This document shows positions 21,400 to 25,830 of a DNA stretch of 35,164 nucleotides, piece after piece (the first letter of the stretch is position 1; every line of letters starts with the position of its first letter). The position numbers and the translations under genes were made by a program. Under the pieces are notes generated by a model. That model was not told the DNA's origin. It was given only the letters and a program-made list of their open reading frames with translations, and ran no database searches. The stretch comes from Bacteroidota bacterium (GTDB lineage Bacteria > Bacteroidota > Bacteroidia > Chitinophagales > Saprospiraceae): contig JAHEAR010000034.1 in NCBI GenBank assembly GCA_024642665.1, positions 1-35,164 on the forward strand. Direction: 5' to 3'.

Positions 21400-23091
21400 T
21401 TATGATCCGCTATCTACCGGTATCGATTTATTTGGGAGCACTTCATTGATGATCAGACCAAGGAAAATTACGGCACTACAACCAATGACATTGTACCATA
21501 GAAATCCAATATCGGTTGTTAGGAAAAAAGTCAGCACGATGGCTTGTGCCATAAGGGCACCAAAAAAGACAGCCGTAGCCGACATGCGCTTGATAAAAAA
21601 TGCAGAAAGAAAAATACCGAGAATGGTTCCATAAAATATAGAGCCGACTATATTGACAAATTGAATGAGGTTTTCAAACAAACTGCCAAACGTGGCAAAA
21701 CTTATAGCGATTGCTCCCCACATCAAAGTGAAAAGTTTCGAGGCATTGACAAAGTGATTTTCTGAGGCATCGCTTCGGATAAGGCGTTTATAAAAATCAA
21801 TAGTGGTGGTAGAAGCAAGCGCATTTAATTCAGACGCCGTAGAGGACATTCCACCAGCCATGATAGCGGCTATCAGCAAACCAATAATTCCTTTCGGAAG
21901 GAAGTCCAGGATAAAGCGAATGAAAATATAATCGCGATCATTTGACTCTACTTCAGGAAGTGCTGTTTCTATCAACGATTTAGCTTCTGCACGAATGGAT
22001 TTTTCTTTGGCAATACTCTCCTCCAGTTTGAGCTGATTGATAGGAGCACTTTGTCCTGCTAATATAGGTGCGTATAATGTTTGACGATAATCATGCTCTT
22101 TAGTCCATTCCTCTTGCAGGTTAGCATATGCATTTGCCGAACTGGTTTCCTTGATTTCCATTTCTGCATGCGAATTAAAGAACAGCGGGGATTGCTGAAA
22201 TTGATAAAACACAAAAACCATCACACCGGTTAAAAGAATAGCAAACTGCATGGGTATTTTAAATAATGCATTAAATAAAAGTCCAAGTCTGCTTTCCCGG
22301 ATGGATTGACCGGAAATGTATCGTTGCGCCTGCGATTGATCGGTCCCAAAATAAGCTAGTGCCAGAAATGTGCCACCGGTAATCCCTGACCAAAACGTAT
22401 ATCGGCTGTTCCAGTCAAAACTAAAGTCTACCACTTTTAATCTGTTATGTGATCCTGCAATGTGCAGGGCATCCACAAAGCTTATACCGGGAGGCATAGA
22501 ATAGATGACGATGAGAAAAGCAATTAAAATGCCACTCATCATTACCAGCATCTGAAATTTATGGGATGCACTCACGGCTTCAGTACCGCCAAATAAGGTA
22601 TATAAAGTCACCGTAGCACCAATGGCCAGGATTGTCAGGTTCAGATTCCAGCCAAGAATACTGGATAAAATAATAGATGGGGCAAAGATGGTAATACCTG
22701 CTCCGAGACCACGTTGAATGAGAAAAAGAAAGGCAGCTAACAAACGCGTTTTGATGTCAAACCTTCGTTCCAAAAATTCATAGACGGTATAGACGTGCAT
22801 GCGAAAGAATCGCGGAATAAAAAACACGCAAATGATGACCATAGCGATGGGCAGACCAAAATAGAACTGCACGAAACCCATGCCATCTCCATAGGCTTGT
22901 CCGGGCGTAGAAAGAAATGTAATGGCACTGGCTTGTGTTGCCATGACAGAAAGCCCAATCGTCCACCACTTCGTTGCATGACCTCCTTTGATGTAGGATT
23001 CCATGTCTCTGTCTTTTCTGGTTTTCCATATCCCATAAAAAACGATGAAAGCTGTGGTGCTGATCAGCACTATCCAATCCAGTCCACTCAT
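21400..23091 (-). CDS. Sodium:solute symporter (SSS family)
   Basis: A 563-residue secondary transporter with about 13 predicted membrane helices, using the sodium gradient to import a solute that cannot be named from sequence. The N-terminus (DWIVLISTTAFIVFYGIW) and segments such as GLSVMATQASAITFLSTPGQ and YTVYEFLERRFD are characteristic of the SSS/PutP superfamily. GGMSSTASELNALASTT (about 410-430) resembles the helix 8 sodium site. A charged loop of about 85 residues (about 300-385) interrupts two membrane helices and is long for the family. Its ATG overlaps the stop of a 41-residue membrane peptide (TGATG), and a PIG-L deacetylase gene lies upstream in the same direction. Confidence 0.95.
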   Translation of the reverse strand: MSGLDWIVLISTTAFIVFYGIWKTRKDRDMESYIKGGHATKWWTIGLSVMATQASAITFLSTPGQAYGDGMGFVQFYFGLPIAMVIICVFFIPRFFRMHVYTVYEFLERRFDIKTRLLAAFLFLIQRGLGAGITIFAPSIILSSILGWNLNLTILAIGATVTLYTLFGGTEAVSASHKFQMLVMMSGILIAFLIVIYSMPPGISFVDALHIAGSHNRLKVVDFSFDWNSRYTFWSGITGGTFLALAYFGTDQSQAQRYISGQSIRESRLGLLFNALFKIPMQFAILLTGVMVFVFYQFQQSPLFFNSHAEMEIKETSSANAYANLQEEWTKEHDYRQTLYAPILAGQSAPINQLKLEESIAKEKSIRAEAKSLIETALPEVESNDRDYIFIRFILDFLPKGIIGLLIAAIMAGGMSSTASELNALASTTTIDFYKRLIRSDASENHFVNASKLFTLMWGAIAISFATFGSLFENLIQFVNIVGSIFYGTILGIFLSAFFIKRMSATAVFFGALMAQAIVLTFFLTTDIGFLWYNVIGCSAVIFLGLIINEVLPNKSIPVDSGS

Positions 23092-23216
23092 CAGGAGATA
23101 TTAAAATATGACCTCATCAAATAGAATAAGATGATCAGGAGGATATTGAAAGTCAAAATAAACAGATAGGCTTTTGACCAGGGTGTCTTTTCAGATTGCG
23201 TTTCTTCCTGTTTCAT
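23091..23216 (-). CDS. Single-helix 41-residue membrane peptide coupled to the symporter
   Basis: A 41-residue frame starting MKQEETQSEKTPWSKAYLF and ending MRSYFNIS. It has a polar N-terminus and one hydrophobic helix (about residues 17-34, with TFNILLIILFYL). The stop codon shares its A with the symporter start (TGATG), a classic arrangement for translational coupling. It is 106 bases after the PIG-L gene on the same strand. I do not recognise a named family; the context suggests a small subunit or regulator of the sodium:solute symporter. Support comes from the overlap, the hydrophobic profile and the absence of another gene in the gap. Confidence 0.75.
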   Translation of the reverse strand: MKQEETQSEKTPWSKAYLFILTFNILLIILFYLMRSYFNIS

Positions 23217-23322
23217 AAAAGGTTTTCCTGTAATAAGCATTTGCCCGTAATGGGAATCAATTTATGGCCATTTATTTTAAAAACGAAAATAATGGCTTAC
23301 TTAAATAATCAAATCAAAGACA

Positions 23323-25830
23323 TCAGGATTTATCGTTTTTGTGTCCTAATGAGATTAAATTGCTTAAAATTCGATATGGACCGGTATCTCCGGCCGGAAG
23401 ATGTCGAAACCAGGAAAGTCCACTGTAAACAAAATATCCCTCACCGTATGGTGCCACCAATAAGGCACCTTTTGTGCCCTGCTCACCGGTGTCATGCATT
23501 TCAAGAAGCGGAGTAAAATGTTCGTCCCATTCACCGGGATAATAAAGTCCTCTTTCCTGAACCCAACCATTGAAATCCTCCTGCGTGATTTTATTAGGGA
23601 ATTGCATGGCGGGATGTGTAGGTTCTAATATCGTCACCGGCGAATTTTCTTCGGTTGTTCTATCTCTGGACAAGGTAATAGGATAAGGAGAAAAATCATC
23701 GGTGACCAATCGTCGGTTGACATTGTACTGCACAATCATTGTTCCACCGGCGGCGGTCCAATCAAAGAGTATTTTGTTTTTATGAGCCAAAGCATCAATG
23801 GTATTAAAAGCTCTGATACCTATGATGACTACTTCATAGTTTGATAAAGTTGAAGGAGTGATACCGGCAGGGTCAATAACATCCACCTTGTAACCTATCT
23901 GACGGAGGGAAGCAGGAACGTCATCTCCGGCACCCTGGATATAGGCAATTGGTCTTTGGGAAATACCGATATCCATACTTTGTAATTTTACGGTGGCATC
24001 ACGTACAATAGACATGTACGGTAAATGGGGATAGTCCAGCGTGTGTATTTTATGGTGGTAGGATGATTCCCCAACTATAATTTCAGGAATCAGGACTGTC
24101 GATGAAGTGTTGTCCGGTGGGGTAATGGTGCATGTCGTATTTAATGTTTCACCGGCAAGTCCAAAAGTCCAGTTGATGGACTCCGGAGCAACCTTCCATC
24201 CAGCCACAGGTGTCTTTAATTTAAGGGTTCCTGAAACGCTATCCTGAACTGCCGTTAACGTCAGGGTAACTTCTCGTGACTCTCCTTTTTTGAATACCAG
24301 TACTTCATCATTGGCTTCGACAGTGACCGGTGGCAGTATTGAAAGTGGTCTTGAAACTTCTCCTTCAGCAGGATCTACTGTTTTGTAAATGACCGGTGTT
24401 TGAAATTGATATGGCTTTCCATCAATGGTAAGATTGATATCAACTGTTATAGACGTTGGATTTGCCGGAACGCCACGCATCGTTTGTTCCTTGACCGTAT
24501 ACATCCCTTCAGTATGTGGATCCTTTAACCAATAGGGGATACTGAGTTCTTCCGGAACTTTAAATGGAAGGTCTGTGGTAAAACCAATATTATAAAGCAG
24601 TGGTTCTGTCAGATAGAAAGTGGTATCTGCAGAAGATGGGCTAATGGATAATAGCGAAACTGATTTTGCAGAACGATTTATGATTTCTAAGGTAACCGGA
24701 AGCGTTGATCCGGGACTGGCTTTAAATCTTTCCGTACGCGCCTCAAAAAACAGGCCGAGGCAATTTTTAATCAGTTCTTCACATTCGGCCAATTTTATTT
24801 TTTTCCAAAATGGATCTGAAAGGCCTTCTATATCACTATGGATTTGAAGCAATAGCGGGATGCTGGTTACAGGGTTTTTAAAATCAAAGGTGCTTTCAAG
24901 TAAATGGACTTTGTTTCCAATAGCCTGGCCACCCTTCACACGATTCCACGTGATGTCTATGCCTTCAAAAAGAGATTGAGGGGTAATATTTTTGGCATCT
25001 TTTACCAATACCAGGTAATCAAGGCTCTCTCCTCTGGTTTCCGCTGAGCCAAATCCCTGACTCTTATGCATGCTTCGGCTTCGTCCGGCGATCTCGCTGC
25101 ATGATTCTCCTGTCACCGGATCAAATGCACCAATGTTGATTCCGATCATGCCTGTTTTGTCAGCCTTTTCGAAAGCTTCTCTAGAGCCGTAGAAAAACCA
25201 TGAAGTATTCCAATAGACTCTTTCCGGTTGCCAAGGGGATACCCATTTAAGTTGTTCGGGATAAACGTCTTTTTTTCCGGCCAGGTCAAAAGCTTCTTCG
25301 GAGAGTATAGCAGAAGCCGTGTGATGGCCGTGATTGGGTCTTGAGGTATCTGAATTGAACCTGTTGATGATGACATCCGGTTGTACTTTGCGGATAGCCC
25401 ATACGACATCACTCAATACAGCATCGCGATCCCAAATGGTAAAGGTTTCCGCCGGCGTTTTTGAATAACCGAAATCATTGGCTCTGGTAAATAATTGGGA
25501 TCCACCATCAATGGCCCTGGCCCCCAGTAGTTCATAGGTCCTGATGACCCCTAGCATATCACGCATTTCGGGACCAATGAGATTCTGACCACCATCTCCG
25601 CGTGTCAGGGAAAGATAGGTGGTATTCACAGACAAGTCATTCGACAGATAGCTGATCATCCTTGTATTTTCATCATCAGGATGGGCCGCGAGGTAGAGCA
25701 CATTTGCCAGAACACCCAGTTTTCGGATGTCTTTGTATATCTCGGCTGATCCTTTTTGGGCCAACAATGTCGTTGTCGAAAAAAATGAAAGGCAGCAGGA
25801 AAGAAAAAAAATGGTGGTCAATGACTTCAT
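23323..25830 (-). CDS. Large exported PIG-L family deacetylase with C-terminal ThuA/GATase-like domain
   Basis: An 835-residue exported protein. A signal peptide (FFLSCCLSFFSTTTLLAQ) is followed by a PIG-L/LmbE zinc deacetylase domain (about residues 38-260). YLAAHPDDENTR (His50, Asp52, Asp53) and the later HGHHTASA supply the expected zinc and catalytic residues; family members remove acetyl groups from N-acetylglucosaminyl substrates. The middle (about 370-620) is beta-rich, and about 640-830 looks like a ThuA/glutamine amidotransferase-type Rossmann fold (YIQGAGDD, VVIIGIRAFNT, GGTMIVQYNVN). It precedes a membrane peptide and a sodium symporter on the same strand, suggesting periplasmic deacetylation linked to uptake. 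The substrate is unknown; the family also includes thiol-biosynthesis enzymes, but the export signal argues against that here. Confidence 0.9.
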   Translation of the reverse strand: MKSLTTIFFLSCCLSFFSTTTLLAQKGSAEIYKDIRKLGVLANVLYLAAHPDDENTRMISYLSNDLSVNTTYLSLTRGDGGQNLIGPEMRDMLGVIRTYELLGARAIDGGSQLFTRANDFGYSKTPAETFTIWDRDAVLSDVVWAIRKVQPDVIINRFNSDTSRPNHGHHTASAILSEEAFDLAGKKDVYPEQLKWVSPWQPERVYWNTSWFFYGSREAFEKADKTGMIGINIGAFDPVTGESCSEIAGRSRSMHKSQGFGSAETRGESLDYLVLVKDAKNITPQSLFEGIDITWNRVKGGQAIGNKVHLLESTFDFKNPVTSIPLLLQIHSDIEGLSDPFWKKIKLAECEELIKNCLGLFFEARTERFKASPGSTLPVTLEIINRSAKSVSLLSISPSSADTTFYLTEPLLYNIGFTTDLPFKVPEELSIPYWLKDPHTEGMYTVKEQTMRGVPANPTSITVDINLTIDGKPYQFQTPVIYKTVDPAEGEVSRPLSILPPVTVEANDEVLVFKKGESREVTLTLTAVQDSVSGTLKLKTPVAGWKVAPESINWTFGLAGETLNTTCTITPPDNTSSTVLIPEIIVGESSYHHKIHTLDYPHLPYMSIVRDATVKLQSMDIGISQRPIAYIQGAGDDVPASLRQIGYKVDVIDPAGITPSTLSNYEVVIIGIRAFNTIDALAHKNKILFDWTAAGGTMIVQYNVNRRLVTDDFSPYPITLSRDRTTEENSPVTILEPTHPAMQFPNKITQEDFNGWVQERGLYYPGEWDEHFTPLLEMHDTGEQGTKGALLVAPYGEGYFVYSGLSWFRHLPAGDTGPYRILSNLISLGHKNDKS

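Follow-up and report, generated by a model that had tools for sequence, protein, structure and literature searches.

Several transporters are encoded beside a short membrane protein, among them the sodium:solute symporter (SSS) carriers with DUF4212 or DUF485/YjcH proteins, the NSS carriers with MetS, and the transporter of KdpF. The DUF4212 and DUF485 proteins have two helices and are longer than the peptide described here. Small one-helix proteins that act as transporter regulators, inhibitors or assembly factors also exist. To our knowledge, the SSS carrier SiaT (5nva, 5nv9), a Na+-coupled sialic acid symporter, works without a small subunit. KdpF is named as a small transporter subunit (PMC10903887). 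In the cryo-EM structure of the human SLC5/SSS transporter SGLT2, a single helix of the small protein MAP17 (PDZK1IP1) contacts TM13, and TM6 is assigned to the immobile module together with TM13 (PMC10803289). A 2020 review gives MAP17 two spans, states that it makes SGLT2 more active by two orders of magnitude at an unchanged amount of SGLT2, and calls the way in which MAP17 helps SGLT2 not fully clarified (PMC7462921).

Here, we analyzed a window of 35,164 nucleotides from a Bacteroidota bacterium (contig JAHEAR010000034.1), the minus strand of which encodes, in the 5' to 3' direction, a PIG-L family deacetylase, a frame of 41 codons and an SSS symporter. We found that the short frame encodes a real protein that is conserved at the amino-acid level. 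From sequence comparisons and structural models, we suggest that this peptide is probably a single-pass accessory subunit of the adjoining symporter of 13 predicted helices, which it would bind and whose transport it would affect. The features of the locus are as follows.

21400..23091, minus strand: SSS-family sodium:solute symporter, 563 aa (TIGR00813, 6.3e-69; PF00474, 2.2e-41; match to SiaT, 5nva)
22393..22395, minus strand: symporter codon 233 (F), at the outer end of TM6 in the predicted topology; the residue that coevolves most strongly with peptide residue 25
23089..23093, minus strand: TGATG, with base 23091 common to the peptide stop and the symporter start (sequence)
23091..23216, minus strand: single-helix membrane peptide, 41 aa, proposed small subunit of the symporter (profile match 4.0e-12; upstream conservation 306/325)
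23100..23183, minus strand: predicted transmembrane helix, codons 12-39 (AlphaFold helix, column frequencies, 100-degree periodicity)
within 23100..23183, minus strand: conserved face of the helix, W13, Y17, V/I20, N/L24, I28, F31, T/M35 and F/Y38 (column frequencies, periodicity)
23142-23144, minus strand: peptide codon 25, which coevolves with symporter residue 233
23323..25830, minus strand: PIG-L family deacetylase, 835 aa (PF02585, 2.3e-11, 44.7 bits vs a cut-off of 28.2)

The short frame and known families

The peptide reads MKQEETQSEKTPWSKAYLFILTFNILLIILFYLMRSYFNIS, and its stop TGA lies at 23093..23091. An earlier note on this DNA had described a 41-residue frame with a single membrane helix, a stop that shares one base with the symporter start in TGATG, and no recognized named family, and each of these points was borne out: the frame runs from 23216 to 23091 on the minus strand, AlphaFold gives one helix over residues 12-39 (mean pLDDT 80), and nothing in Pfam or NCBIfam lies above its cut-off. 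A longer start, ATG at 23240, would give 49 aa; in the closest relative (symporter 84% identical), the start is equivalent to 23216 and the peptide also has 41 aa. In the whole genome of the window, the peptide profile has a single confident match, which is at the locus (4.0e-12; next best 0.383). The same genome has three more regions with weaker similarity to the symporter, yet only this one confident peptide match. By eye, the N-terminus of the PIG-L deacetylase resembles a signal peptide.

For the peptide of the window, the best match in the two libraries is DUF2976 (E 0.13; 12.6 bits vs 28.2). Among 67 peptides compared with NCBIfam, 10 families were matched at E<=1, a range in which the HMMER filters drop most matches above E ~0.1, and none lies above its cut-off (best MPN214, E 0.0032, one member). 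None of the Pfam matches listed for the 67 peptides (25 of 28 families) is above cut-off either; the best is RcnB (0.0079, one member) and the widest is DUF2976 (6 of 67 peptides, best 0.028). MetS, DUF4212, DUF485 and KdpF are absent from these 10 NCBIfam families and 25 of 28 Pfam families. NF045580.1, symport_access (33 positions), is by its name a very short symporter-linked protein and in this respect alike; it is matched by none of the 67 peptides at E<=1 and does not find the locus at E<=10, the only match in the genome at this threshold being elsewhere (14.1 bits vs a cut-off of 35). A profile of the 67 peptides, searched against PDB chains, where MAP17 is expected, found one chain at E<=10, the unrelated 4k81 (0.3), and plasmid records held no match to the gene set. 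By title and start of abstract, the literature matches listed include no report on the peptide, and anonymous entries in small-ORF catalogs (e.g., PMC11364881) are possible; the excerpts of PMC8140960 and PMC5554334 contain nothing on it. No characterized close relative of the symporter was found among the matches listed. Altogether, the peptide is unnamed in the libraries searched; its kind is known, while the family appears to be new.

Conservation of the peptide among symporter relatives

The earlier note had held that absence of a similar frame before orthologous symporters, or random codon substitution within it, would refute the proposed partner; neither result refutes it. In the first 110 symporter loci, the peptide profile recognized a short frame upstream in 107; loci of Pontibacter, Aquimarina and Flavobacterium are among those with the frame. 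In the larger set, the symporter matched at 250 bits or more in 388 loci; after removal of duplicates, these gave 325 distinct symporters, and the peptide lies directly upstream of 306 of them (profile E < 1e-3, searched from 400 nt 5' of the symporter start); because the loci were picked by symporter similarity, 306/325 is a figure for that sample. The 19 misses comprise four split loci, described below; one locus (L030) with a weaker peptide match (2e-4) ~0.8 kb upstream; five with an unrecognized frame; and nine without any. In the five (L183 and L186-L189), which belong to deeper-branching relatives, a short, divergent hydrophobic frame with one helix stands in the same place and is not recognized by the profile, and the peptide family may be wider than the present profile. 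In the nine (L173, L182, L184, L185, L232, L252, L271, L344 and L345), no such frame is present in the upstream DNA examined, which for L344 amounts to 133 nt; therefore, not every member depends on the peptide. In L182 (genome G210), L184 (G233) and L185 (G241), the PIG-L frame ends within the symporter start, the two overlapping as ATGA. Because G126, a genome with the same genus label, has the peptide, loss of the peptide in these three loci is suggested.

Nucleotide substitution in the frame is far from random and strongly purifying. For 79 non-overlapping pairs with symporters >75% identical, pS was 0.694 and pN 0.213 (Jukes-Cantor [JC] dN/dS 0.13), and for the 23 pairs at >=90% symporter identity, pS was 0.547 and pN 0.096 (JC dN/dS 0.105); these counts were made without the 45% identity filter of an initial version. 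The +1 frame of the same DNA gave ratios of 0.96 (79 pairs) and 1.11 (23 pairs), i.e., no bias. In the band of 75-85% identity, pS is beyond saturation and, therefore, no ratio is given for that band. As a chance control, we considered ORFs of at least 200 aa in the same loci and asked for an ATG frame of 27-60 codons with a membrane-like stretch that ends within -60..+7 of the ORF start; such a frame precedes 18 of 613 non-symporter ORFs vs 247 of 314 symporters. A chance ORF is ruled out by this background together with the single confident match in the genome, the conservation upstream of the symporters and the purifying selection.

Co-occurrence was analyzed in 218 genomes of the phylum, drawn evenly and at least 90% complete, with thresholds of E <= 1e-3 for the peptide and E <= 1e-80 for the symporter. 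The peptide was found in 72 genomes and the symporter in 88; 71 genomes have both, one has only the peptide, 17 have only the symporter, and 129 have neither. In four of the 71 genomes with both, peptide and symporter are not adjacent, as read from the two match tables. In the sole peptide-only genome, G126, PIG-L and the peptide are followed by a truncated symporter; in this locus (L192, 2900-3400), the PIG-L and peptide frames are open and the symporter is without its middle, which could be a true deletion or an assembly fault. Genetic linkage to a carrier and co-occurrence with it, by which an accessory subunit can be recognized, are thus both found for the peptide.

The peptide has a median length of 38 residues (5-95%: 30-49; n=306), with start codons picked by a simple rule. 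Four of its positions stand out in the column frequencies of the 306 peptides, i.e., Y17 (99%), W13 (94%), F31 (88%) and I28 (79%). Conservation over residues 13-38 has its strongest period at 100 degrees (p 0.0004 by permutation), and this period argues that one face of the helix is constrained. K and R residues are more frequent before the helix (mean 3.1) than after it (0.47), with more before in 296 of 306 peptides, equal numbers in nine and fewer in one. Based on the positive-inside rule, this excess suggests that the N-terminus of the peptide is inside and its C-terminus outside.

Symporter fold and coevolution with the peptide

The symporter scores above the curated SSS cut-offs (PF00474, 142.5 bits vs 22.8; TIGR00813, 233 bits vs 184), and its AlphaFold model (pLDDT 92.8) has the SSS (LeuT-like) fold, with 13 transmembrane helices according to our reading of the model helices. 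The closest solved fold is that of SiaT (5nva; Z 47.6, 2.2 A, 469 of 563 residues aligned, 26% identity). In contrast to SiaT, the present symporter has ~70-90 residues more, chiefly helices between TM7 and TM8; together with a hydrophilic hairpin, these extra helices occupy residues ~307-397 (21901-22173, minus strand), on the outer side in the predicted topology. The hairpin is supported by strong couplings within the symporter (322-370 and 329-366), and three weaker peptide-symporter couplings (36-372, 29-353 and 39-356) point to the same region. The model aligns with residues 21-569 of the 672-residue SGLT2 chain; because the alignment ends at 569, the last helix of SGLT2, TM13, likely has no counterpart here.

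Coevolution was analyzed in the 306 peptide-symporter pairs (effective number 221) with reduced alphabets of 8 and 11 classes. The top inter-protein coupling joins peptide residue 25 to symporter residue 233 and is the fourth strongest of all column pairs separated by at least five positions. Its strength of 1.14 compares with best null values of 0.70 (shuffles within 15 clades) and 0.86 (within 68 clades), each from 25 shuffles; i.e., it beats the best coupling of 50 of 50 within-clade shuffled pairings, and the association survives a finer division into 120 clades (z 4.29). The commonest combinations at 25/233 are A-F (82 of 306) and aliphatic-aliphatic, and both are contrasted in several clades; the pair of the window, I25-F233, occurs in 19 of 306 and is not one of these two. 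The 11-class alphabet also places 25-233 first, and its ten best couplings add up to 6.86, slightly more than in four of four nulls (5.63-6.57). Among the other couplings, 24-533 is gone with at least 32 clades, 34-461 is gone at 120 clades, and 34-290 is weakened to p 0.029. Residue-volume correlation gave no support to 25-233, the value of which is reached by null maxima in 70, 215 and 299 of 300 shuffles at the three clade cuts. A membrane-depth test was mixed: under the 8-class alphabet, the top 10 and the top 20 couplings fit the N-in/C-out orientation better than eight of eight nulls and the top 40 are not above all nulls; the 11-class alphabet gave no advantage over nulls. Because the other couplings fail some control, the proposed contact between peptide and symporter near residue 233 is supported by one strong pair and not by a map.

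Alternative roles of the peptide and the split loci

The earlier note had proposed to look upstream of SSS genes for frames ending in TGATG or ATGA. The one-base overlap is a minor form: 109 of 306 peptide frames overlap the symporter start, 89 of them by ATGA and 18 by one shared base (TGATG/TAATG). This spacing, with 236 of 306 frames ending no more than 7 nt from the start, would suit a frame that merely guides ribosomes, in cis, onto the start of the symporter and whose product is inert. We consider such a leader or translational coupler improbable. Selection acts on the amino acids and on the helix face, the gap exceeds 10 nt in 60 of 306 loci, and a search of 22900-23500 for an RNA element gave no Rfam match at E<=1. 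Moreover, in four genomes of one genus (L190, L191, L193 and L194), a stretch of ~15 kb on the opposite strand lies between peptide and symporter, which are adjacent in four other genomes of this genus; the split probably arose once. In these loci, the peptide frames have remained open, with mostly silent changes (pS 0.22, pN 0.033, as sums over six pairs that are not independent). Selection on the peptide even at 15 kb from the symporter argues that it is the product and not the position of the frame that matters, and that the frame is not merely a leader. As a point against a subunit, no gene fusion of peptide and symporter was found in the 325 loci (best E 0.02).

The note had also pointed to PIG-L genes as the place to search. 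PIG-L is a common neighbor, but the peptide follows the symporter. With four of the 325 loci having too little DNA for this tally, a PIG-L relative lies directly upstream of 247 symporters, 240 of which have the peptide; among the 74 symporters without PIG-L directly upstream, 62 still have it, arguing that the peptide goes with the symporter. It is therefore very improbable that the peptide serves the deacetylase, e.g., as a membrane anchor, with the symporter as a bystander, even though the two genes are so often neighbors and G126 keeps both open beside a truncated symporter; in three loci PIG-L and symporter stand together and the peptide is absent, and the peptide coevolves with residue 233 of the symporter. 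A closer competitor, which we nevertheless regard as rather unlikely, is that the peptide binds the symporter to regulate or inhibit it, or to assist its assembly or insertion and then depart, and is not a standing subunit. One-helix proteins of such kinds are known, and our data speak to partnership and not to stoichiometry or the sign of an effect; on the other hand, the adjacent and often overlapping frames suggest steady co-synthesis, and a conserved face over the whole helix suggests stable packing, although neither is decisive.

Rather, we favor an accessory subunit; the suggestion in the earlier note that the peptide is a symporter partner gains support from linkage, co-occurrence and coevolution, i.e., on a genetic and computational and not a biochemical basis. 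In such a subunit, the peptide would insert N-in/C-out, and its conserved face would pack against the lipid-exposed surface of the symporter, close to where TM6 ends on the outer side and possibly also close to TM7 and TM12. Without the peptide, the carrier may fall short of full activity, assembly or stability, by analogy with the MAP17 helix, which raises SGLT2 activity. The short overlaps and gaps between the frames would favor joint synthesis.

MAP17 would be the closest functional precedent, as a small one-helix protein beside an SLC5/SSS transporter, and the strongest coupling found here involves TM6, which is in the same immobile module as TM13 of SGLT2. However, the peptide is not a MAP17: it has no sequence match to it and by eye no apparent PDZ-binding tail, it is encoded beside its carrier, and the SGLT2 helix that MAP17 contacts likely has no counterpart in the present symporter. 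Any resemblance would be at most by analogy. Tentatively, we speculate that phylum-wide one-helix subunits and a 13-helix SSS carrier that lacks TM13 could form a two-part transporter in which the subunit docks, like MAP17, against the immobile module close to TM6, in which case helix-assisted SSS carriers would be an old and convergent design. A close relative of the symporter is present in 88 of 218 genomes; if a partner of 30-50 residues is needed, expression of the large gene by itself could fail or give misleading results. For single-helix help to an SSS carrier, the family offers a compact bacterial model, and annotators could use its 36-column profile to name the frame. As for the imported solute, the upstream PIG-L deacetylase weakly hints at a deacetylated sugar or amine.

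In the split loci, the 15-kb stretch resembles a polysaccharide-utilization island. Its families were tested in L190, where it encodes a glucosamine-6-phosphate isomerase (NagB-like), a small PIG-L protein, FecR, a TonB receptor, SusD, MFS, ROK, PcRGLX-like and Na_sulph_symp proteins. In the family to which the split-locus genus belongs, a WbqC-like gene, assigned by Pfam in L190 and by resemblance elsewhere, is often found upstream of the peptide.
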